A model generated the notes under the pieces. The model did no database searches and was not told the DNA's origin. It worked only from the letters and a program-made list of their open reading frames with translations. DNA of 64,000 nucleotides, taken from positions 62,001 through 126,000 of the forward strand of contig NZ_AVCS01000008.1 in NCBI RefSeq assembly GCF_000498495.1. The letters are read 5' to 3'. A program made the translations under genes and the position numbers. Every line of letters starts with the position of its first letter. Within the stretch, counting starts at the first letter, position 1. This document shows positions 10,921 to 29,998 of this stretch, piece by piece. The DNA comes from Flavobacterium enshiense DK69 (GTDB taxonomy: Bacteria > Bacteroidota > Bacteroidia > Flavobacteriales > Flavobacteriaceae).

Positions 10921-11544
10921 ATGACCGATTTTGAAATCAACCCGAAGTATGAGATGATTATTGATGATTTGATGAATCAAAAATTCAGTATCGCTGATAA
11001 TTTTTTTGCGCCCGATGAGGTAGCATTGCTGAGGAAAAACCTCTTAAGAAAGTTCGATGAAAGGAACTTTAAAAAATCAGCCATCGGAAATCAGGACAGG
11101 GAACAGATTGCGGAAGAAGTACGTGGTGACTTTATTCTTTGGTTGGATGAGCAGAATGCAGATGAAGCAGAGCAATTATATTTTGAACGAATCAATGATT
11201 TTGTCCGCTATCTGAACAGGACTTGTTTTTTAGGGATTCAGGATATGGAATTCCACTATGCATTGTATCCGGAAGGGACTTTTTATAAACGACATCTGGA
11301 TACCTTTCAAAACGATAGCCGGCGGAAACTTTCCATGGTTTGTTATTTGAACGAAGAACATTGGCAAATGGATTATGGCGGAGAACTGACGATTTACAAA
11401 AATGAAGACGGAAACGAAACGGAACTCAATGTCGTTCCGGTCCAGGGAAGAATGGTGATTTTTGAAAGCCAGGTGTTAGAGCACGAAGTCAAGCCGGTAC
11501 GACAGCCTCGTTTAAGCATAACCGGTTGGTTAAAGACGCGGTAA
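10921..11544 (+). CDS. 2-oxoglutarate-Fe(II) dioxygenase, prolyl 4-hydroxylase-like
   Basis: This 207-residue protein belongs to the double-stranded beta-helix 2OG-Fe(II) oxygenases. The iron ligands H125, D127 (KRHLDTF) and H188 (VLEHEV) and the 2-oxoglutarate-binding R197 (QPRLSITGW) are in the expected order and spacing. YGGELTIY is the conserved strand in between. The family includes SM-20/EGL-nine-like prolyl hydroxylases that modify ribosomal or elongation-factor prolines; the substrate here is not known. It stands alone between oppositely oriented genes. Confidence 0.85.
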   Translation: MTDFEINPKYEMIIDDLMNQKFSIADNFFAPDEVALLRKNLLRKFDERNFKKSAIGNQDREQIAEEVRGDFILWLDEQNADEAEQLYFERINDFVRYLNRTCFLGIQDMEFHYALYPEGTFYKRHLDTFQNDSRRKLSMVCYLNEEHWQMDYGGELTIYKNEDGNETELNVVPVQGRMVIFESQVLEHEVKPVRQPRLSITGWLKTR

Positions 11545-11546
11545 TA

Positions 11547-11723
11547 TTATTGGTTGTTTTCTTTTTTTCTGGCGCGATAATACATCCAGTAAGCGATGCC
11601 TGCCAGAACAACGAAAGGGAGGAAAGTGCCTATGAATACGCCTATTTCATAACTCGAATCGGGTGCGTTTTTTATTTTTTCCTCGATAGCTGTATTTTGT
11701 GTTAAAAGAAAGAAATGTTTCAT
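11547..11723 (-). CDS. 58-residue single-span membrane protein
   Basis: The frame from ATG 11723 to TAA 11547 encodes 58 residues. The N-terminal half is polar, with a conserved-looking SSYEIGVFIG segment. One hydrophobic segment follows (about 28-48, ending AGIAYWMYY), then a basic tail (RARKKENNQ). Clean codon use, a good start, and a strong terminator on the other side suggest a real small gene. I do not recognise the family with certainty. The stop lies two bases from the convergent oxygenase stop. Confidence 0.6.
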   Translation of the reverse strand: MKHFFLLTQNTAIEEKIKNAPDSSYEIGVFIGTFLPFVVLAGIAYWMYYRARKKENNQ

Positions 11724-15671: not shown

Positions 15672-17480
15672 CTAGTGGTTTTCTCCTTTTTCTGCCAGTT
15701 TACGCTCTAATTCGGCTTGAAATTCCTCGATAACTGGTTTCATTGTGCTTTCAGGGATGTCGGCTATGCGGATATACATCAATCCATCAACTGCATTGTT
15801 GAATAATGGGTCAACATTGAAAGCAACTACACGAGCATTCTGCTTAATGTATTTCTTGATCAATACAGGCAAACGCAAACTTCCCGGTTCCAATTCGTCA
15901 ATAATCTTGTCAAACTTGTTCAAATCGGATTCAGCTTCATCAAAAATGAAATCTTTGTCGGCGTCTTTTAATTTTACCTTGTATTCCTTTTTAGGGTGTA
16001 CATATTGAGCAATATATGGATCGTAATAATTCGACTTCATGAATTCAATCATCAGCGATTTCGAAAATTCCGAAAACTGGTTACTGATACTTACGCCGCC
16101 GATAAGGAATTTATGCTCCGGATAGTGTAATGTTGTGTGAACAATACCTTTCCAAAGCAAAAACAAAGGCATTGGTTTCTGTTGGAATTCTTTGATGATG
16201 AATGCGCGACCCATTTCGATGGATTTACTCATCATGTCAAACAATTCGGGTTCAAATCGGAATAACTCCTGAAGGTAAAAACCGTCGATGCCATATTTGG
16301 CAAAAATCTGTGATCCTAATCCCATGCGGTAAGCTCCTGCAATCTGCTTAGTATCTTCATCCCACAAAAACATGTGGTGGTAATAGTTGTCATATTTGTC
16401 CAGATCGATGGCTTCATTGGTTCCTTCGCCGACTTCACGGAACGTAATTTCTCGCAGACGCCCTATCTCATGAAGGATGTTCGGAATCTTATCTGCTGTT
16501 ACAAAAAAAACTTCGTAATTCTTGCTTTGCAGAAAACGATAGTCTCCCTTTCGCAGTTCGGTTATTTCCTGAATGATCAGGTCCTGTTTAGCAGGGGTTA
16601 CAATCTGTTTCGGATTTTTCGGTAATTTTAAACTTGGAGCTGAAAGCAGTTTGGTTTCTGTTTCGAATGCATTGGCTAGTATATAGGTCTTGCGGCGTAA
16701 AAAATCGGAATAAGCATCCAGCGATTCGTATTCGTTTTGTTCAGCCACCGAAATTGGTTTTCCGATGCGGACTTTGATTACGCGGTCTTTTTGTGTCAAT
16801 AACTCCGAAGGTAATTTTGCCGTGCGAAGTGTGTCGTTTATTTGGGAAAGCAAATAAAATAACCTGCTGTTTTTGGCATGAAAATAAATCGGGACTACAG
16901 GAACCTGTGCTTTTCGGATGACTTTGATAGCGCCTTCTTCCCAAGGTTTGTCTACTACCAGCTGACCGTCTTTGTAAGTTGAAACCTCTCCGGCAGGAAA
17001 CATGCCTAATGGTTTTCCATCGCTTAAATGACGAAGTGTTTCTTTGATTCCGATAACGCTTGATTTTGCATCCTTGTGATTTTCAAACGGATTCACCGGC
17101 ATGATATACGGTTTCATCGGTTCGATGCGGTGCAACAAGAAATTGGCAATGATTTTGAAATTCGGTTCTCTTTCGAGCATTAATTTTAAAAGTAAAATGC
17201 CGTCAATTCCGCCTAGGGGATGGTTGGAAACCGTGATATAAGGTCCTTCTTTCGGTAATCGTTTTAAGTCTTCTTCCGGAATTTCAAATTTAATCTGAAA
17301 TTCATCCAATATGGCATTCAGGAATTCAAGATCTTTTAAGTGCTTGTTCCTGTTGTAAATTTTGTTCAGGGTGGAAATTTTAAGTGCCTTCATCAGTAAC
17401 CAGCCTGAGAAGGTTCCTAAAAAGCCGTATTTATCAGCATTTATTGCTTTTGCAACTTCTTTAGCAGTAACTAAACCCAT
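15672..17480 (-). CDS. Two-domain acyltransferase, OlsF-like (PlsC + GNAT)
   Basis: The 602-residue protein joins an N-terminal PlsC-type O-acyltransferase domain (about 60-280) to a C-terminal GNAT/hemolysin-type N-acyltransferase domain (about 320-510). The O-acyltransferase motif is NHPLGGID (H87, D93), that is five residues between His and Asp rather than the usual four, followed by the glycerol-phosphate-site-like FPAGEVST. The GNAT half shows REITFREVGEG, AGAYRMGLG and LQELFRF. Known OlsF enzymes make ornithine or glycine-type aminolipids by acylating the amino acid and then the hydroxyl. The same product class is likely here; the amino acid is not predictable. Confidence 0.85.
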   Translation of the reverse strand: MGLVTAKEVAKAINADKYGFLGTFSGWLLMKALKISTLNKIYNRNKHLKDLEFLNAILDEFQIKFEIPEEDLKRLPKEGPYITVSNHPLGGIDGILLLKLMLEREPNFKIIANFLLHRIEPMKPYIMPVNPFENHKDAKSSVIGIKETLRHLSDGKPLGMFPAGEVSTYKDGQLVVDKPWEEGAIKVIRKAQVPVVPIYFHAKNSRLFYLLSQINDTLRTAKLPSELLTQKDRVIKVRIGKPISVAEQNEYESLDAYSDFLRRKTYILANAFETETKLLSAPSLKLPKNPKQIVTPAKQDLIIQEITELRKGDYRFLQSKNYEVFFVTADKIPNILHEIGRLREITFREVGEGTNEAIDLDKYDNYYHHMFLWDEDTKQIAGAYRMGLGSQIFAKYGIDGFYLQELFRFEPELFDMMSKSIEMGRAFIIKEFQQKPMPLFLLWKGIVHTTLHYPEHKFLIGGVSISNQFSEFSKSLMIEFMKSNYYDPYIAQYVHPKKEYKVKLKDADKDFIFDEAESDLNKFDKIIDELEPGSLRLPVLIKKYIKQNARVVAFNVDPLFNNAVDGLMYIRIADIPESTMKPVIEEFQAELERKLAEKGENH

Positions 17481-21238: not shown

Positions 21239-22633
21239 TTAAAATTTATTTGAGACCATAATTTTTTGCGTATAAATCTGCCCTAGATTGCTTTTTATTT
21301 CCAAAAGATACCATCCGGAAGCAAAGTTTCCGGTGTTTACGGAATTTATCGGCTCGTTCTCTGTTTTTTTCGAAAGCATTTTTTTACCCATGCTGTCAAA
21401 TAGGGTTATGGCAGTAGCGAAAACACCTTCATCGTCAGTTTGAATGAAGAATTCGGATTTTGAAGGGTTTGGATAAATTTTAATTTTTTTTTTAGTTGAT
21501 TTCACAACGCTCAATGAACTGTCAATTAATTTGTAAATGACTCCGTTATTAATGGAACCTGCATAAAGTTCGCCATTCATATCTTCCCCGAAGGTTACAA
21601 ATCTATTACCGCTGAAGGTTTGGGAGAAAGTAACGTTTCCGGAACTGTCCACCATGCCTATTTTAGCTAGACAATAGTCGGAAAAGAAATATTTGCCCTG
21701 AAAATTAGGATAACTAGGTCCACGGTAAACATAGCCTCCGGTTATGGAACAAGCTCCCGAGGTATGATTTGTAACGACCAAAGGCATTTTCATAGAGCTC
21801 TGCGTGGGACAACCGGAAGAATTGTAAGCCGTGTTCCCTTCATAACAACGCCAACCATAATTAAGGCCGGCTTGGGTTCCTCCAGCTCGATTGACTTCTT
21901 CGTATTGGTTCTGACCCACATCGGCAATCCATAAATCGCCATTTTGTCTGTCGAACGAAAATTTCCATGGATTCCGAAGTCCGATAGCCCAGATTTCATC
22001 TGCTCCTGCCGCGCCCGCATAGGGATTGCCTGGCGGAATTCCATAGGGCGAACCTGAGTTGACATCAATACGAAGCATTTTTCCCAACAGTTCATTGATG
22101 TTTTGCGCTCGGTTTTCAGGATCGCCTGCGCCACCGCCGTCACCCATACCGATGTATAGGTAGCCGTCAGGACCAAATTTTAATGAACCACCATTATGGT
22201 TGGAATAGGGTTGCGGTATGGTTAATAGGATGGTGGCAGTTGGATTGGCTACATTGGGATTGCCGGAACTTACCGAATATCGGGCTATGATCGTTGCCCC
22301 ATCACTGACTCTGGTGTAATTCACATAAAAATAACCATTTGAAGCATAATTGGGATGAAACGCCAATCCGAGTAATCCTTGTTCTCCACTGGCATTAGTT
22401 AAGGATGAAAGGTTTAAAAAAGGAGTTGGATTTGTAGTCCCGTTAGGATTCAGGATTTTGATAAGACCATCTTGTTCCGCCACAAAGAGTCTGCTGTCGC
22501 CACAATGCGTAATTTCCACTGGAGAGGAAAACCCTGTTCCAAAACTTTGTAATCCAATTACTGCGGGACCTGTTTGGGAATGCTGTGTGCATTGGATAAA
22601 GACCAAAGCAATTAATAGGAATACTGTTCTCAT
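21239..22633 (-). CDS. Secreted PQQ-dependent sugar dehydrogenase-like beta-propeller, T9SS type A cargo
   Basis: 464 residues: signal peptide (1 to about 18), a six-bladed beta-propeller of the soluble glucose/sorbosone dehydrogenase family (about 25-375), and a T9SS type A sorting domain (about 385-464; IYPNPSKSEFF, LFDSMGKKM, TQKIMVSNKF). Family hallmarks include GEQGLLGLAFHP, NHNGGSLKFGPDGYLYIGMGDGG and GLRNPWKFSFD. The cofactor would be PQQ, but propellers of this family can also lack redox activity. It is the first gene of a two-gene unit with the NADP reductase. Confidence 0.88.
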   Translation of the reverse strand: MRTVFLLIALVFIQCTQHSQTGPAVIGLQSFGTGFSSPVEITHCGDSRLFVAEQDGLIKILNPNGTTNPTPFLNLSSLTNASGEQGLLGLAFHPNYASNGYFYVNYTRVSDGATIIARYSVSSGNPNVANPTATILLTIPQPYSNHNGGSLKFGPDGYLYIGMGDGGGAGDPENRAQNINELLGKMLRIDVNSGSPYGIPPGNPYAGAAGADEIWAIGLRNPWKFSFDRQNGDLWIADVGQNQYEEVNRAGGTQAGLNYGWRCYEGNTAYNSSGCPTQSSMKMPLVVTNHTSGACSITGGYVYRGPSYPNFQGKYFFSDYCLAKIGMVDSSGNVTFSQTFSGNRFVTFGEDMNGELYAGSINNGVIYKLIDSSLSVVKSTKKKIKIYPNPSKSEFFIQTDDEGVFATAITLFDSMGKKMLSKKTENEPINSVNTGNFASGWYLLEIKSNLGQIYTQKIMVSNKF

Positions 22634-22665: not shown

Positions 22666-22694
22666 AAAAATCCCGACATATAGCCGGGATTTTT
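22666..22694 (-). terminator. Terminator after the VWA/toroid operon
   Basis: Stem AAAAATCCCG/CGGGATTTTT with a 9-base loop, about 20 bases after the VWA gene stop. Confidence 0.75.
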
Positions 22695-22711: not shown

Positions 22712-23872
22712 TTACTTTTCTACCGTGTACCCTTTGGTTTTGGCAAAAGCAATCACCGAACTGTTGATTGCTCCGCCCAAATCGTCTTGGGTATTACTTT
22801 TCTTCATTTCAGCATCGATGTAGGATTGACGTTTTTTTGCCAATTCGCCAATTTCTTTCTGGATGGCTTCACGCTCTTTTGCCTTTTTATCAACGTAAAC
22901 TTTGATTTCGGCTTTGGACTTGTTTTGCAGTTCTCTTGGCAATTCCTCTTTTTTGAGTTTATCAATAGCTCTTTCATCGTCTTTTATTTTATCCACCAAA
23001 TCCCAGCTGTCGTTTTTGTAAACTGCTTTTGACTTACTCACGGCGCGTTCTGTATAATTCGCTGCGGAAACTCTTTGCGCATTGGAATCCTGCATTTCCT
23101 GGTTTCTTTTTTTAGCATTTCCCATAGCGCCATAACTGATGTAGGTTGTATTGATTTGGGCATTGCACTCCGAAATACGGACATCATAAGGCGTGGCAAT
23201 GTAAATAACGGCTTTATTGGAATCAATGTTGAAGTATTTTCCCTTCCCGGCATCGGCACCATCTTTCCAAAAAGTTCGGATGCCTTCTTCCTGATTCCCG
23301 CAGAAAATGGTGTTCACATAAATATCCTTTTTCAGTGCATCACTGATGGCTTCTTTATAATTAATGTTGCCTTGGTTGAAAGGTTCGTTCCCTGCAATGT
23401 ACAATAGTTTCATGTTTGATTTGTCCTTGCCCCAATTCAGTTGATTGGTCGCATCGGCAATTACAGCACCGCAATATTCCGAGCCGCCGTTGGTACGAAG
23501 GGAGAACAGTTTTTCGGAAATAAGGTCCAAATCGGTTGTCAATGGAGCCACTTGACGGATGTAATTGGATTGAGCCGATAAACCGTCGTTGCCGTATTCA
23601 TATAAACCGATTTCGATATCCGGAGTTTTGCCGTGGTATTTCAAAGTGGTCAAAGTGTTAACGATGTTCCACAAACGGGATTTTGCCTGTTCGATCAACC
23701 CGTCCATACTGTTGGAGGTATCCAGAAGAATGGCTACCTGGATTTTGGTATTCTCGGTTTTGACCTTCTTCTCAGTTGCCATTGGAATTCTTTCGTTACT
23801 CTTGGCATTAGTACAGTTTGCAAAAGATAATGCGGTTGCAAAAAGACTGGATATGATGAATGTGTTTCGCAT
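22712..23872 (-). CDS. VWA-domain lipoprotein
   Basis: The 386-residue protein starts with a lipoprotein signal; a cysteine in SFANC (C20) is the likely lipid site. A von Willebrand factor A domain occupies about 45-250, with an intact MIDAS start DTSNS (DxSxS). The C-terminal third is Lys/Glu-rich and probably helical (about 275-370). VWA domains bind proteins through a metal ion. The gene follows the toroid gene by 17 bases in the same direction, so both products probably work together at the cell envelope. The partner and ligand are unknown. Confidence 0.82.
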   Translation of the reverse strand: MRNTFIISSLFATALSFANCTNAKSNERIPMATEKKVKTENTKIQVAILLDTSNSMDGLIEQAKSRLWNIVNTLTTLKYHGKTPDIEIGLYEYGNDGLSAQSNYIRQVAPLTTDLDLISEKLFSLRTNGGSEYCGAVIADATNQLNWGKDKSNMKLLYIAGNEPFNQGNINYKEAISDALKKDIYVNTIFCGNQEEGIRTFWKDGADAGKGKYFNIDSNKAVIYIATPYDVRISECNAQINTTYISYGAMGNAKKRNQEMQDSNAQRVSAANYTERAVSKSKAVYKNDSWDLVDKIKDDERAIDKLKKEELPRELQNKSKAEIKVYVDKKAKEREAIQKEIGELAKKRQSYIDAEMKKSNTQDDLGGAINSSVIAFAKTKGYTVEK

Positions 23873-23889
23873 GGTATTTGTTTTTTAGA

Positions 23890-25194
23890 TTATTGTTGTA
23901 AGGTTTTGATATCGTTTTCTATGGTTAAGATCAGTAAGCAGGTTGCCGTACAGAACACCGGGCTGGTGATACAGTGGTGACCATTCCAACTGCCGTTCTC
24001 GTTCTGTATTTTGATGATCTTGCCGCTTACGTTGTCGTACCAGTGTTTCCAGTCGGAGTCTTTTTTCACCATCAGGGATTCCCCGGTTTGTAAAAAGCTC
24101 ATGAATTCTTCCCCGCCGTTGTTGCCGAAACCATTCATCACATTGTTGTCCATCGCCTGTACTTTGGCCGCTTTGTAAACTTTATCCGCTACTTCATAGC
24201 TGGCAGCTTTTTCCTTCGGAATCCCTATTTTCTCCAGATTATCACGGTTTAAAACTGCTTTTTTATCGATTTTGCCCGAAGCTTTGGCTTCTTCAAATAC
24301 GGTTTCTGCTTCTTTGGCTTCCGCGGCGCTTCCACGTACAGAACTACTTACAGCATATAGCATGATTCCGGCCCCATCATCGGTTTTGGCGGTTTTGCTG
24401 TCGGCATCGTAATTGCCTTTTTGGTAGTTTCGGGCGGCATCGATTTTGTCTTTGTCGACTTTGATGTTTTTGTTTTTGGAAGCCTGCTCCAATCCGGCAT
24501 TGGCAAACGACGATTGTAACACGCCTGCCCAACCGGCTCCGCTTACTCTTCCGCTGGCATCATACGATTTTTCGATTTTGTCCACGCAAATTTGTATGGC
24601 ATTTTCGACTCTTTTTTTAAGGGTTCCGTTCGGTAAAGTCGGAACAACCTGATTTAAAAATTGTAAAGTCAGCGCGGCATCGATGTTTTGGCCGAGTTTG
24701 GTTTGAATTTGGGTTCCGCGCACTTGGGTTATGTAGTCGTTGTTTTTGTTTTTCTCCACTTCGGATAATAAAAAATCAAGTGCATTTTTAAGTTGTTGTC
24801 TGTATTTTCCTTTTTCGATGGAGTAGCCCATACGGTACAGTGCCATGGAAGCCATAGCCGTAGTGGCCGGATCTGAACTTACGGCATGTGGGTTCATTTC
24901 GCCCTGATTGCTGTGGGAACCTGCTCCCCAACCACCATCAGAGTTTTGGGCGTCTATTAACCATTTTTCACCTTGGTCTATTGCAGATGCTGTTTTGGAA
25001 TCATTTTTGTATTTGGCATAATCGGTTACAGATTGTTCACCCATGACCGACATAAATACGCAGGGTTTCTCTTCCGATACAGGTTTTTCATGAGTTGTGA
25101 TAAATCTGTTTTCAGTTGTGAATTTATCTTTCAGAATGATGCCTGTAACCAGTGCCGTGGCACTTAATACTATTGCTAAATTTTCCGTTTTCAT
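23890..25194 (-). CDS. Alpha/alpha-toroid (prenyltransferase/squalene cyclase-like) envelope protein
   Basis: 434 residues, with an N-terminal hydrophobic anchor or signal (about 5-24). Toroid-type helical repeats carry the QW-like segments QNSDGGWGAGS and ENGSWNGHHC, and STA-type repeats such as DPATTAMASMALYRMG. These folds occur in terpene cyclases, protein prenyltransferases and alpha-2-macroglobulin thioester domains. No DXDD cyclase acid motif is visible, so a catalytic terpene role is unlikely. It shares an operon with a VWA lipoprotein and is divergent from a LytS/LytTR pair. Function unknown. Confidence 0.65.
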   Translation of the reverse strand: MKTENLAIVLSATALVTGIILKDKFTTENRFITTHEKPVSEEKPCVFMSVMGEQSVTDYAKYKNDSKTASAIDQGEKWLIDAQNSDGGWGAGSHSNQGEMNPHAVSSDPATTAMASMALYRMGYSIEKGKYRQQLKNALDFLLSEVEKNKNNDYITQVRGTQIQTKLGQNIDAALTLQFLNQVVPTLPNGTLKKRVENAIQICVDKIEKSYDASGRVSGAGWAGVLQSSFANAGLEQASKNKNIKVDKDKIDAARNYQKGNYDADSKTAKTDDGAGIMLYAVSSSVRGSAAEAKEAETVFEEAKASGKIDKKAVLNRDNLEKIGIPKEKAASYEVADKVYKAAKVQAMDNNVMNGFGNNGGEEFMSFLQTGESLMVKKDSDWKHWYDNVSGKIIKIQNENGSWNGHHCITSPVFCTATCLLILTIENDIKTLQQ

Positions 25195-25344
25195 GATTTT
25201 TTGGTTTAAGATTCTATTTCAAAATTATCCTTAGAATCGGCACCTTTTTTGCAGAATGGGTGAAACCGGGTTTTGACTTGGTGAAACAGCTTGCGGGACC
25301 GTTTTTAAAATATTTACTTTACATTTACATAGAAACACTGTAGT

Positions 25345-27174
25345 ATGTCACTGAAAAAGGCTCTTTTCACTCTTATTTTTTTACTGTTGAACCTCACGTT
25401 TGAGGCTTCAGCGCAGGATACTATTCAGCCATCTGCAGTAAAAAGTAAAAAGGCGGCATCATATAAAATAAGCAGAGCGGCTGATGATTTGAAAGAGTCT
25501 TTGGATGCTAACGATGAGGTCGAAATTGCCAAGAATTATGAAAAGCTGGCCGAGGGGTTCATCGAAAGAGGCGACAACGCCAAAGCGGAAGAATACCTAA
25601 AAAAAGCATTGGCTACGTATACGAAACTAAAACGCAATCGCGATCAGACGAGAGTTACAAGAAGTTTGGCCAAAGTGCAGGAATCGCAAAAGAAAATCAG
25701 TTCGGCAATTCAGAATTATGAAGCGGCAGGAGCAGCTTCTATGGAGAAAAGTGAAGAGCAGGTAAACAGAAACGATGCCAATCGCTTGCGAAGTGCCAAT
25801 AGTCCGGCGGCTCAGATGAATTATTCCAATGCGAATATTAAGTTGTTGGAAAAAGAAGATAAAAAAGCTGAAGTGGCCGATGCTTATGTGCAACAGGCAG
25901 AAGCCAATCTTCAGCAAAAAAACAAGGAAGTAGCTATTGAGAGCTATGAAAAAGCAATTTCCTACGTGAAAGACAAACCGGAAGAAGTCGTGAAACTGAA
26001 AACGGAAATAGCGAAAGTATATGCTTCCGACAACCAGTTCGATAAGGCATTGGGGATAAGTGAAAAATTACTGGCCGAAGCTGAAAAAACGAACGATTTC
26101 GATACACAAATCAAACAGTTGCAAACGCTGGCGACGATTTATTTTAAGAAGAACGAACCAGAAAAAGCGATTCAGTGTTTGAAACAAGCCTATCAGTTGG
26201 CATTGCGGCAAGGGAAAACTGCTGAGGTGAAAACAAGTGTGCTGCAGTTGCTGCAGTATTACAAAGCCAATGGCAAGGACAAGGAAAGCATCGCCTTGTA
26301 CGACGATTTCTTTCAGAATTTCGACAAGCTGATCCGCAACGACAGTTCTTTAATAGATGAAAAGACCTTTCAGGTAACCGAAGAGAAAATCCGTCAGCTT
26401 GAAAAGGAAAAAGCCCTGAAAGACGAACTCATCGCTAAGAAAAATACCTTCAATTATGTGTTGATGGGTTCATTATTGTTGTTGCTTTTGCTGGTGGGGT
26501 TAATTGTGAAGGCGCTGTATTCCATCAAAACCAAGAACAAGGAAATTGCCTTGCAGTCGCTGCGCCGTGAAATGAACCCGCATTTTATTTTCAACAGCCT
26601 GAACAGTGTGAATCAGTTCATTTCCCAAAACAAGGAGCTGGAAGCTAATAAATACCTGACTTCCTATTCGCATCTGATGCGTAACATGATGGAAAACTCG
26701 AACAAGGATTTCATCAGTTTGAGCAGTGAAATTGAACAACTGAAAAAGTATCTGGATTTAGAACACTTGCGTTTTCAGGACAAATTCGACTATCAGATTG
26801 TAGTTGATGATGCGTTAGATACAGAAACGACCTTCGTGCCCAACATGCTCATCCAACCACATCTGGAAAACGCAATTTGGCACGGGCTGCGTTATAGAGA
26901 AACTAAAGGGTTGTTGTTGTTGAAATTCGAACTGAACCGTGGAAAAGTATCCGTGATAGTTGACGATAATGGTATCGGCCTGACCGAAAGTGCCGCACTG
27001 AAAACTCGCAACCAGAAAGTACACCAGTCGCGCGGGGTGACCAACACCAGTGAACGCATCAGTTTGTTGAATGGACTGTACAAAACGCAAATCGATTTTT
27101 CCATTACCGAAAAGAACAGCGGGACCACAGGAACCTTAGTGACGATAACCTTTCCATTGTTAGATAAAATATGA
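25345..27174 (+). CDS. TPR-containing LytS-type sensor histidine kinase
   Basis: 609 residues: signal peptide (1-24), periplasmic tetratricopeptide-like repeats with coiled coil (about 40-365), one membrane span (371-391), then a His_kinase domain with the phospho-acceptor H413 in NPHFIFNS. The ATPase domain has the N box QPHLENAIWHGL (504-515) and G box DNGIG (541-545). Kinases of this class phosphorylate LytTR regulators. The regulator follows immediately, its ATG overlapping this stop. The periplasmic TPR array suggests sensing through protein contacts. The VWA/toroid operon is divergent 150 bases away and is a natural candidate target or sensor partner. Confidence 0.9.
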   Translation: MSLKKALFTLIFLLLNLTFEASAQDTIQPSAVKSKKAASYKISRAADDLKESLDANDEVEIAKNYEKLAEGFIERGDNAKAEEYLKKALATYTKLKRNRDQTRVTRSLAKVQESQKKISSAIQNYEAAGAASMEKSEEQVNRNDANRLRSANSPAAQMNYSNANIKLLEKEDKKAEVADAYVQQAEANLQQKNKEVAIESYEKAISYVKDKPEEVVKLKTEIAKVYASDNQFDKALGISEKLLAEAEKTNDFDTQIKQLQTLATIYFKKNEPEKAIQCLKQAYQLALRQGKTAEVKTSVLQLLQYYKANGKDKESIALYDDFFQNFDKLIRNDSSLIDEKTFQVTEEKIRQLEKEKALKDELIAKKNTFNYVLMGSLLLLLLLVGLIVKALYSIKTKNKEIALQSLRREMNPHFIFNSLNSVNQFISQNKELEANKYLTSYSHLMRNMMENSNKDFISLSSEIEQLKKYLDLEHLRFQDKFDYQIVVDDALDTETTFVPNMLIQPHLENAIWHGLRYRETKGLLLLKFELNRGKVSVIVDDNGIGLTESAALKTRNQKVHQSRGVTNTSERISLLNGLYKTQIDFSITEKNSGTTGTLVTITFPLLDKI

Positions 27175-27920
27175 TGACCATCCAGAAAATAAAAGCCGTA
27201 ATTGTTGAAGACGAAGTAGCTGCCCGCGAAGTGCTCAAAAATTATTTGGGCAAGTATTGCCCGCAGGTGGAAGTTATCGGCGAAGCACAAAACATAAAAG
27301 AAGCGGTTCCGCTACTGCATGAAGTGACTCCGCAACTGGTTTTTCTGGATGTAGAAATGCCTTTCGGGAATGCCTTTGATGTATTGGAAGCTTGTAAAGA
27401 TTTACATTTTGAAACGATTTTCGTGACTGCTTTTTCCGAGTATTCACTGAAAGCCCTCAATCAAAGTGCGGCGTATTATCTGTTGAAACCCATCAGTATT
27501 GAAGAATTGATCATGGCGGTCAACAAAGTACAGCAGCATATTTTGAACCATGAGCTTTTCAATAGGAATAAAATCATCGTTGAGAATTTCAGGGAAACCC
27601 AACCTGAAAAGAAGCAGGTCATCCTCCCTACATTGGAAGGTTTCGAGGTGGTAAAAATGGAAGACATCGTCCGATTGCGGGGCAATGGCAACTTCACCGA
27701 TTTACACTTGGCCGACGGAAGCAAAAAAATGGTCTGCCGTTTTCTGAAACATTTTTCGGAGATCCTGCCGTTTCCTTTTTTACGCGTCCACAAATCGCAC
27801 ATCATCAACATCAATTTCGTGAAATCGTACAACAAAGGCGGTTACATCATGCTGAATGACGGAGCCGAAATCGAAATTTCGCCAACTTATAAAGAAGAAT
27901 TTTTGAGAAATTTTAAGTAG
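27171..27920 (+). CDS. LytTR-family response regulator
   Basis: 249 residues. The receiver domain (about 7-125) has acidic residues near 13-14, the phospho-acceptor D60 in VFLDVEMP, and the LLKP lysine. A LytTR DNA-binding domain (about 147-249) follows, with the RLRGNGNFTDLHL and FLRVHKSHIIN segments typical of the fold. It overlaps the kinase gene by 4 bases, marking a co-translated two-component pair. LytTR proteins usually bind paired direct repeats upstream of targets. Confidence 0.92.
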   Translation: MMTIQKIKAVIVEDEVAAREVLKNYLGKYCPQVEVIGEAQNIKEAVPLLHEVTPQLVFLDVEMPFGNAFDVLEACKDLHFETIFVTAFSEYSLKALNQSAAYYLLKPISIEELIMAVNKVQQHILNHELFNRNKIIVENFRETQPEKKQVILPTLEGFEVVKMEDIVRLRGNGNFTDLHLADGSKKMVCRFLKHFSEILPFPFLRVHKSHIININFVKSYNKGGYIMLNDGAEIEISPTYKEEFLRNFK

Positions 27921-28033: not shown

Positions 28034-29998
28034 CTAAAAATCAAACTCATCCGCCAAATTCGTTTCGGCAGGAATAGTATCCTGAACCACTTTTATCTTT
28101 AAAAACGATCGGGCACGGCCGGAAATGTAAATTGGAGCCGATTGTCCAATGGTGTCTTCCGAGGTAATCAACGCGCGGCGCAGCATCAGGTTTTTAATGT
28201 AGTTCTGATTTTTTTGAGCGTATGATTTCTGATTGCCTTCATCGTCAAATTGCCACATGAATTTCTTTGGTTTTGGTACGATGGAAGCAAGGTACAAACA
28301 CTCGTTCAGTGTTAAGTCACTCGGACTTTTCTGGAAATAAAAATGCGCCGCTTCCCCGATGCCATATACATTCGGGCCCCATTCAATCACGTTGAAATAG
28401 ACTTCCAGCATTCTGGATTTGGTAGCGATTCGGTTGTTTTCCAAAACATAGACCAACAGGATTTCTTCCAGTTTACGGGAAAGTGTTTTTTCGCGGGTCA
28501 GAAATACGTTTTTCACGAGCTGCATGCTGATGGTACTTGCGCCTCGGGCAAATTTTTTGGTTCGGATGTTTTTGACAATCGACTGTTTAAAGGCTTCGTT
28601 GATAAAACCGTGGTGACGGCGAAATGAAGGATCCTCGTTGGTTAAAACGGCTTTTTCCAGGTAAGGTGAAATCTGATCCAGCGGCGTATAATTCGGATTG
28701 CCGGCTCCTACCAAAATAGGACGTTGTTCGACATCGTTTTCAATGGCACGATAGGTGAATTCTCCGTTGAGTTTCGCAAGATTCGCTTCACCGTATTTCA
28801 CGATGCGGAGGTTTTCCTTATTGAGTTTGACGTCGAAAATTAGATTGTCCGGTTTCTTCTTGTTGTATTCGAAATTCAGTTTGTAGTCAAAATTCCCTTC
28901 AGCTTCCATCCCTTCAAAATGCGTAAACAAACCTTGTGGAAGCGAGGTAATGAAATCCTGTGCTTTCATTTTTGGGATGCGGATTTTCAGCTTGTAAATC
29001 GTGTCTTCTTCGGTATTGTATTCGGCAAAAGGATGTACTTTGATGTGGTTTAGTTGTGCCGATGAGGTGCTGTCAATTGAAATAAAATCACGTCCCAAAA
29101 GGAAACGGTAGTCGAAACGGGCATTTTTAATAACTACATCTTTTTTGGCAATTTTCGGATGGTTGATAGTGAAATTTTCAATCGAAGTAAAGCCATCGAT
29201 GTGCAGCTCACCACTTTCCATTTCCAGTTTGTCCAGCTTTATGTGGATGTTGTCGAAGCTTGATTTGAGTCCGAAACGCTCGTCAATATAAGGCAGCTGA
29301 ATTTTGGAAGTATCACTGTTGAAGAATTTCAGATCGGCTTTTTTCTCGCGGGGATTGGCAAAACCCTTGATGTTCCAGTTTTGCGAGAATGTATTGGTTT
29401 TTACATTGATGGCGGTTTGCAGCTGATGGTCTTCCAAGCGCAAATCGTTCATGTGTAACGTTACTTTACGTCCCATGTCGTCCATGCGTAACGACAGGTT
29501 TTTCAGTTTCATTTCCGTCGGAACCAGGTTCAGTGCTTTCGACAATAGTCGGTAGACCAATTTGGCGTAATTGCGTTTTTCATTCGATTTTTCCTCTTTA
29601 TGGCCGTTGAGAAAAGCGTCGAAATTGCGTCCGTTTTTATTTTTAACGAGTTGAATAAAACCGTTGTTCATTTCGAGGTTCTTCAGTTGAATATCCCCTG
29701 TAAGCAACTCCAAAATATTATAACTGGTTTTTATATTCTGAACCGATAAAAGCGTGTCAGCTTCTTTCGGGATCAGGACAATATCATGAAGTTCTACACC
29801 AGTAGCTCCTATGAAAGCTGCCTTTTTAACTGAAAAATGGCAATTGTATTCGCTGTCGAATTTGGATTTTACTTTGGCGATTGCTTTTTGCAATAACATA
29901 TCACGGAAGAAATACATTCCAGCCATGGCCAGCAGTAACAGTGCTGCCAGGATTTTCAGGAAAAGAAAAAACTTTTGCTTTCTGGATCGTAGTGCCAT
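28034..29998 (-). CDS. AsmA-like / glycosyltransferase 51 fusion (peptidoglycan transglycosylase)
   Basis: 654 residues. One N-terminal membrane anchor (about 10-30) precedes a long AsmA-like periplasmic region (about 40-430) of beta-rich repeats. The C-terminal GT51 domain (about 440-620) polymerises lipid II glycan strands. GT51 motifs are present: EDPSFRRHHGF with the catalytic Glu, RGASTISMQLVKN, RKLEEILLVYVLE and EVYFNVIEWGPNVYGIGEAA. No transpeptidase domain follows, so this is a monofunctional transglycosylase carrying a lipid-transport-like region. The same architecture is known in other Bacteroidetes; its biological reason is unclear. Confidence 0.85.
   Translation of the reverse strand: MALRSRKQKFFLFLKILAALLLLAMAGMYFFRDMLLQKAIAKVKSKFDSEYNCHFSVKKAAFIGATGVELHDIVLIPKEADTLLSVQNIKTSYNILELLTGDIQLKNLEMNNGFIQLVKNKNGRNFDAFLNGHKEEKSNEKRNYAKLVYRLLSKALNLVPTEMKLKNLSLRMDDMGRKVTLHMNDLRLEDHQLQTAINVKTNTFSQNWNIKGFANPREKKADLKFFNSDTSKIQLPYIDERFGLKSSFDNIHIKLDKLEMESGELHIDGFTSIENFTINHPKIAKKDVVIKNARFDYRFLLGRDFISIDSTSSAQLNHIKVHPFAEYNTEEDTIYKLKIRIPKMKAQDFITSLPQGLFTHFEGMEAEGNFDYKLNFEYNKKKPDNLIFDVKLNKENLRIVKYGEANLAKLNGEFTYRAIENDVEQRPILVGAGNPNYTPLDQISPYLEKAVLTNEDPSFRRHHGFINEAFKQSIVKNIRTKKFARGASTISMQLVKNVFLTREKTLSRKLEEILLVYVLENNRIATKSRMLEVYFNVIEWGPNVYGIGEAAHFYFQKSPSDLTLNECLYLASIVPKPKKFMWQFDDEGNQKSYAQKNQNYIKNLMLRRALITSEDTIGQSAPIYISGRARSFLKIKVVQDTIPAETNLADEFDF

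Follow-up and report, generated by a model that had tools for sequence, protein, structure and literature searches.

The window analysed here, a 64,000-nucleotide (nt) stretch of Flavobacterium enshiense DK69 (GCF_000498495.1, contig NZ_AVCS01000008.1, positions 62,001–126,000, forward strand), contains a divergent locus in which genes for a histidine kinase and a response regulator face genes for a toroid protein and a VWA-domain lipoprotein. The TPR-LytS histidine kinase gene (25345–27174, + strand, 609 amino acids (aa)) is overlapped at its end, by 4 nt, by the start of the REC-LytTR response regulator gene (27171–27920, + strand, 249 aa). On the other strand lie the toroid gene (23890–25194, − strand, 434 aa), whose product combines a membrane or signal segment with an (alpha/alpha) toroid, and the VWA gene (22712–23872, − strand, 386 aa). 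The divergent starts of toroid and kinase are exactly 150 nt apart (25195–25344). A first-pass annotation, made from the sequence of the window, had given the same four open reading frames (ORFs) and the same gap, and its domain calls agree with those from Pfam. It had also joined VWA and toroid in one operon, and the two probably do form a two-gene operon, because they share a strand, are spaced by 17 nt and are followed, 3′ of VWA, by a strong terminator-like hairpin with a T-run (22666–22694, − strand; dG −16.5 kcal/mol, z −4.55). This hairpin was absent among the matches of a simple terminator scan.

The two signalling proteins were characterized by domain searches. Pfam matched the kinase to His_kinase (PF06580; 4.5e-20, 72.1 bits against a cut-off of 25.2) and TPR_12 (2.7e-15), with His413 conserved within MNPHFIFN, and the regulator to Response_reg (9.7e-16; 58.4 bits, cut-off 30.2) and LytTR (2.3e-11; 44.2 bits, cut-off 22.6). 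With PF06580 and a conserved His in one protein and REC plus LytTR in the other, the pair belongs by domain content to the LytS/LytTR type. Against NCBIfam models the regulator scored below cut-off, with 95.7 of 246 bits for BtsR and 82.8 of 375 for LytR, and a loose first look at 36 genomes returned 19 to 82 candidate relatives per genome. Across Flavobacterium loci, identity to the window proteins is 54–89% for the kinase and 81–98% for the regulator. A single strong hydrophobic segment was found in the kinase (19-mers with starts at 367–379); because the kinase's N-terminal signal-like stretch fell below the cut-off used, we only infer that the TPRs are likely periplasmic.

The interval between the operon and the kinase contains a 13-nt direct repeat, similar to GACTTGGTGAAA, with a period of 21 nt (25254–25287). 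The candidate operator half-site 1, GAATGGGTGAAAC (25254–25266, + strand), is followed at 21-nt spacing by half-site 2, GACTTGGTGAAAC (25275–25287, + strand), which is conserved in relatives; the core of the repeat reads TTGGTGAAA, 12 nt, TTGGTGAAA. LytTR sites are typically two direct or inverse repeats of 9–11 nt, 11–13 nt apart, with no shared consensus, according to the accessible part of PMC4847170, and that of PMC11347149 gives a similar description. With 9-nt halves, a 12-nt spacer and a 21-nt period, the window repeat has the form of a LytTR target site and is predicted to be one. Direct repeats of period 21 matching at 8 or more of 9 positions were found in 22 of 33 dereplicated kinase upstream regions; other periods in the range 10–40 gave 0–6, and 30 resampled controls gave a mean of 1.07 and a maximum of 3. 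For this count the near-identical loci L016, L018, L078 and L098 were removed, and L083, L085, L086, L087 and L096, in which the kinase start had been misassigned, were recut by hand (L and G numbers are our handles for loci and genomes).

A search of 32 sequences (512 kb) with the operator pattern, allowing up to three mismatches, returned 41 sites, of which 40 are intergenic, with at least one site in each sequence; the reversed pattern returned 3. All 40 intergenic sites have one orientation relative to the output gene, and 32 lie 58–73 nt before the start codon taken for that gene, the remaining eight lying at 39, 80 (twice), 110, 116, 158, 268 and 303 nt. Other genera of the family use a different half-site, ACTCATT, with the 21-nt period kept (L083, L086 and L096; L087 with one change), and the regulators of these genera are only 43–45% identical.

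On the output side the repeat is joined to a putative promoter. The predicted −7 element of the toroid–VWA operon, TAATTTTG (25220–25227, − strand), is 29 nt from the site pattern (25257–25286) and follows the Bacteroidetes promoter consensus, given as TTTG/TAnnTTTG at −33/−7 in the accessible part of PMC6847099. Of 39 dereplicated sites, 38 (29 of them with a perfect box) have a −7 box matching at 5 or more of 6 positions on their output side, always at a distance of exactly 29 or 30 nt; the rate at other positions of those stretches was 11/1950. This set excludes the near-duplicates L016, L018, L036, L078 and L098 and the coding site of L008, and includes five added sites from L136, L138 and L139. 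No −33 motif stands out by eye in the consensus of the 39 sites. In the far genera L083, L086 and L096, the second ACTCATT copy is 35 nt away from a −7-like box (only 5/6 in L083 and L086); the corresponding distance in the near group is similar, 34 nt by hand count. On the kinase side, −7-like boxes occur roughly 26–33 nt from the site in several loci; because their position is not fixed, autoregulation is treated as possible only.

The unit of repeat plus −7 box precedes unrelated genes, namely those for the toroid, VWA, SIMPL, a second VWA protein, a rhodanese-DUF4139 protein and tiny lipoproteins. In L009 the toroid gene carries its own site, 1 kb from the kinase-side site, and in L136, a locus without VWA, a unit stands before each of two tandem tiny-lipoprotein genes of 67 aa each, counted from ATG. 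The latter genes (11509–11712 and 11922–12125 of L136) are near-identical and encode acidic products; the kinase pair is present there and VWA gave no match. The first-pass annotation had proposed that the regulator controls the operon and had named the 25195–25344 interval, inside which the conserved operator–promoter unit lies. Its presence before the toroid even away from the kinase (L009) fits this proposal, and control of the toroid–VWA operon by the kinase/regulator pair is, as a prediction from comparative sequence, well supported.

To describe how these genes are inherited, several genome sets were compared. VWA was found in 20 and the toroid in 4 of 101 Flavobacterium genomes, and all four toroid genomes had VWA (hypergeometric p 0.0012). 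Nineteen of the 101 had both VWA and regulator, one (G090) VWA only and one (G033) the regulator only, a tally which assumes that the 101-genome sample lies inside a set of 398 Flavobacterium genomes for which misses are partly listed. In every one of the 19, VWA and regulator were on one contig, on opposite strands and separated by at most 3.4 kb. The regulator was present in 82 of the 398 genomes (E ≤ 1e-100), and among 395 Bacteroidota genomes VWA was present in 48, the toroid in 5 and both in 2; in these two scans the best 4 or 6 first-look candidates per genome were scored, so their misses are less certain than those of the 36- and 101-genome searches. Regulator orthologues (E ≤ 1e-60) were detected in 20 of 36 chosen genomes, all 20 with VWA, and in 0 of 13 Flavobacterium genomes without VWA and 0 of 3 toroid-only genomes. 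The 20 VWA genomes of that comparison are 17 of the 48 from the 395-genome scan plus G009, G011 and G098, with the other 31 VWA genomes outside it. Some genomes appear under two labels, as matching contig coordinates indicate (L005 = G011, L007 = G098, L036 = G009, L012 = L098 = G385).

We fetched 32 of the 48 VWA regions, together with 3 toroid-only regions. VWA was divergent from a LytS-type kinase with regulator in 21 of the 32, including L079, whose regulator lay just outside the fetched stretch and was found in the 36-genome regulator search. L090, with a plain His_kinase and no regulator found, was counted as ambiguous. The space between VWA and kinase varies: it may be empty or may hold the toroid, SIMPL, a second VWA protein or other genes. 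Many Flavobacterium loci carry an L,D-transpeptidase (YkuD_2) and/or DUF4139 behind VWA, and in other genera of the family DUF4349 or PorP/SprF genes are near the locus. DUF4139/DUF4140-type proteins were noted near VWA or toroid in L005, L009, L011–L013, L015, L036, L071–L073, L075, L076, L079, L098, L104, L105, L137 and L139 (Pfam-checked for L005, L009 and L079); DUF4139 had no match in the window's own genome, though it lies behind VWA in many relatives.

The toroid behaves differently from the other three families. Among 32 toroid-relative loci, the toroid faces kinase and regulator divergently in 15 (L005–L018 and L036, nearly all from Flavobacterium), 14 of which also have VWA; the exception is L009, whose genome (no completeness given) gave no VWA match. 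In one further locus (L034) the contig is fragmented and carries pieces of both toroid and VWA. None of VWA, kinase and regulator was seen within the stretch covered for the remaining 16, some stretches being short, and their neighbours differ: outside Flavobacterium these include an M2 peptidase, a metallo-lactamase fold, an fn3-CXXCH protein, an aminotransferase, SecA and a met-zincin, with no common theme. By these comparisons the toroid is an optional passenger of the VWA–kinase–regulator locus. A conserved linkage of all four families, which the first-pass annotation had named as a test, holds for VWA, kinase and regulator and fails for the toroid (48 and 5 of 395 genomes for VWA and toroid, 2 shared); the four-gene set was rejected as a conserved unit, the toroid being rare (4/101 Flavobacterium, 5/395 Bacteroidota) and found in other contexts elsewhere.

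We consider it likely, with some reserve, that the locus encodes a LytS/LytTR two-component switch with a mainly or wholly local regulon that controls exchangeable envelope outputs. The periplasmic TPR domain of the kinase would sense the state of the envelope, and the phosphorylated regulator would bind the repeat and recruit RNA polymerase. The regulator would act mainly as an activator, since the −7 box directly follows the unit and the consensus shows no conspicuous −33 motif. The genes thereby switched on would encode secreted proteins or lipoproteins; VWA is the commonest of them, and in this lineage the toroid comes first with VWA behind it. The output genes would be exchanged between species while the switch and the promoter unit stay. 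The purpose is probably a response to envelope damage or envelope maintenance, because the genes that the switch would control or carry along are those for SIMPL, L,D-transpeptidase, DUF4139, VWA and lipoproteins. We suggest only tentatively a wider reading, in which kinase, regulator and rigid promoter unit are fixed and different species fill the output slot with different, mutually unrelated genes for secreted proteins or lipoproteins, giving an envelope-response locus with exchangeable effectors, perhaps as the result of a surface arms race against phages, predators or toxins.

Several observations weigh against a locally acting switch of this kind. The pair is lacking in ten of the 32 VWA regions, of which nine come from outside the class, and therefore VWA can work without kinase and regulator; conversely, G033/L136 has the pair and its sites without VWA. 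The −7 box is missing from one of the 39 sites (the first of L079), and in L085 no 21-nt repeat is clear (7/11). The counts exceed the number of separate events, since the sites of related species are not independent of one another. With one mismatch, the 18-base pattern also occurs off-locus in three genomes that have the pair (G300, G182 and G404, all inside genes) and in five that lack it (G268, G029, G412, G471 and G435). Among the matches listed, the full unit was matched without mismatch in G493, as part of a repeat array that lies in a predicted ORF, and with one mismatch at an intergenic off-locus position in G117 (L140 1857–1922, + strand). Summed over the genomes scanned, on-locus sites included, the operator pattern gave 119 matches compared with 71 for its reverse, and the full-unit pattern 348 compared with 322 (summed by hand). 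Finally, the signal and the envelope-response purpose are read only from the predicted location and the families of the outputs.

Given these totals, genome-wide use of the patterns was rejected as too noisy outside the locus. In the window's own genome, among the matches listed, the full unit occurs once without mismatch, at the window locus, and five others have three mismatches. One match with three mismatches, at 17091 of the window, resembles three-mismatch matches in G009, G439 and G060 and was judged to be coding conservation or chance. Five off-locus matches were examined, of which four are within genes or ORFs (G300, G182, G404 and G493) and one, that of G117, is intergenic. The G117 match precedes a 670-aa ORF that starts like an exported protein and might be a further target of the switch.

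The two output proteins were examined in turn. VWA matches PF00092 (1.7e-6, 28.8 bits against a cut-off of 23.8) and has a metal ion-dependent adhesion site (MIDAS) motif, DTSNS, at residues 51–55, in which D51, S53 and S55 are invariant in nine aligned sequences; by this score and the DxSxS motif it fits the VWA domain proteins, and metal binding is predicted. Its lipoprotein Cys20 is likewise invariant across the nine sequences, the window protein's own lipobox (A-N-C) being imperfect. The structure model (pLDDT 66.7) is weaker than that of the toroid; it matched VWA domains such as that of integrin beta3 (Z 19.5, 182 residues) and, among many VWA folds of equal Z, that of BatB (3ibs; Z 18.4, 22% identity). 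VWA and toroid each have a single match in their own genome at E ≤ 0.001.

For the toroid protein, Pfam reported SQHop_cyclase_C (5.6e-7, 29.3 bits against a cut-off of 26.1) over residues 65–126 only, and AlphaFold2 placed an (alpha/alpha) toroid at residues 57–434, a range in which most of the model is confident (whole-model mean pLDDT 81). Motif scans of the 434-aa protein found neither the catalytic DxDD motif, as the first-pass annotation had noted, nor the CxEQ thioester motif. Two assignments were rejected: a class II squalene/terpene cyclase, by the missing DxDD and a score of 33.2 of the 322.7 bits of NCBIfam TIGR01787, and the thioester (TED) domain of alpha-macroglobulins, by the missing CxEQ and a TED_complement score of 18.5 bits, below the cut-off of 22. 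The best structural matches were GH76 (Z 21.9, rmsd 3.6 over 296 residues) and squalene-hopene cyclase (Z 21.8, rmsd 3.4 over 279 residues), and the best Foldseek match was AprG (E 1.5e-4, 10% identity); because several toroid families tie within Z 1, none is diagnostic and structural matches were not used for family assignment. Alignments revealed the conserved motifs GWAGVLQS, GFGNNGGEEF and NGSWNGHHCITSP, which suggest a binding or catalytic pocket in a protein assignable to no family. In an alternative explanation the toroid would act as a terpene-cyclase-like or glycosidase-like enzyme in a metabolic operon, with VWA as a scaffold. The very strong conservation of the pocket-like motifs NGSWNGHHCITSP and GFGNNGGEEF argues for this, as does the fact that the two best structural matches are enzymes. 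However, DxDD is missing, several toroid families tie, and the toroid is found in unrelated contexts; a metabolic operon would also leave the toroid-less switches unexplained. We regard this explanation as unlikely, and it is compatible with the toroid being one output of the switch.

Two further explanations concern the switch itself. The first-pass annotation had envisaged a contact-sensing or self-monitoring complex, in which the TPR domain of the kinase would bind the toroid or VWA directly and report its state. All products except the regulator are predicted to be membrane-bound or extracytoplasmic, TPRs bind proteins, and the kinase diverges faster than the regulator, as a sensor tracking variable partners might. 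However, most loci that have this switch lack the toroid, and kinase, regulator and operator persist without VWA in the genome of L009 and in L136, the latter having neither output, so that the idea of kinase, toroid and VWA all having to meet is contradicted; contact sensing and kinase–toroid binding found no support, and we judge such a complex quite improbable. It is also conceivable that a different regulator reads the repeat and that the kinase pair is no more than a stable neighbour, given that any dimeric regulator could read direct repeats and that single good pattern matches occur elsewhere. We hold this to be about as improbable: 9-nt direct repeats with a 12-nt spacer fit the LytTR sites described in the accessible part of PMC4847170, the four off-locus matches examined in genomes with the pair all lie within genes or ORFs and only a fifth, in G117, is intergenic, and the half-site differs where the regulator is only 43–45% identical. 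In addition L137, which has VWA and DUF4139 without the pair and is the only such Flavobacterium locus seen, has no site. A LytS/LytTR switch with exchangeable outputs remains our preferred explanation.

Neighbouring genes were also recorded. Beyond the VWA hairpin, the window encodes a protein that resembles sorbosone dehydrogenase and carries a type IX secretion tail (21239–22633, − strand); it is conserved in many loci. On the other side, a 654-aa protein (28034–29998, − strand) joins an AsmA/DUF748-like N-terminal part, whose AsmA and DUF748 scores are below their cut-offs, to a GT51 peptidoglycan transglycosylase domain; its gene stays beside that of the regulator across many Flavobacterium loci. 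Outside the class, a VIT-VWA protein (inter-alpha-trypsin-like) adjoins the VWA family in L089 (4248–6452, − strand), with no kinase pair in the stretch covered. Toroid orthologues of some other Flavobacteriaceae (L020 4917–6732 and relatives) are near LTXXQ proteins (Spy-like, below cut-off) and fn3-cytochrome-like proteins, and the toroid of a Chitinophaga-labelled metagenome genome (L029) is near an M2 peptidase.

The first-pass annotation had suggested that the system could be undescribed, and a search of the open-access literature, with subscription journals and preprints outside it, yielded neither a published description of the locus nor any Bacteroidetes paper in which the site of such a LytTR regulator is mapped. 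The locus is not described in the accessible parts of PMC4847170, PMC11347149, PMC10197871, PMC10057207, PMC6847099 and PMC11237479. A possible lead comes from Flavobacterium johnsoniae coevolved with B. thailandensis, where all five lines were mutated in the LytTR protein FJOH_RS09515 or in the histidine kinase FJOH_RS09520, numbered next (accessible part of PMC10197871). Scaled from the one genome position given there, this pair is expected at approximately 2.2 Mb, and in single-contig genomes of similar size window-type regulators lie at 0.94 Mb in G708 (6.0 Mb), 0.89 Mb in G042 (5.9 Mb) and 5.46 Mb in G723 (6.4 Mb). These two genes are therefore kept only as a lead to what may be a pair of this kind.

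The predicted mechanism itself is of the known LytS/LytTR kind. As far as we found, what is new is a TPR-sensor family with a defined Bacteroidetes operator–promoter unit, and the predicted exchange of unrelated envelope outputs behind that unit. The locus offers a concrete operator, a spacing rule, a −7 box, a 150-nt interval and natural losses and gains for one Bacteroidetes LytTR regulon, and places VWA, SIMPL, DUF4139 and the toroid family, whose roles are unclear, under one predicted envelope signal.

LytS/LytTR two-component systems include YpdA/YpdB and BtsS/BtsR of E. coli, AlgZ/AlgR and AgrC/AgrA. The window pair resembles them in its His_kinase PF06580 domain, its REC-LytTR regulator and a candidate site, ahead of the target promoter, made of two short direct repeats spaced by about two helix turns; YpdB likewise reads a direct repeat within its target promoter, as stated in the accessible part of PMC4847170. 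In contrast to known systems, the sensor here is a TPR protein with one strong hydrophobic segment, the half-site is GACTTGGTGAAA and is combined with a Bacteroidetes −7 box, and the predicted outputs are secreted proteins or lipoproteins of unrelated families that vary between species. The toroid shares its fold and a short Pfam match with squalene-hopene/terpene cyclases, but lacks DxDD and has a hydrophobic N-terminal segment that resembles an anchor or signal. BatA and BatB belong to Bacteroides aerotolerance operons. The window VWA is similar to them as a Bacteroidetes VWA domain with a structural match to BatB (3ibs); it differs in being a predicted lipoprotein whose C-terminal part is helical and in being encoded beside a TPR-LytS/LytTR pair.

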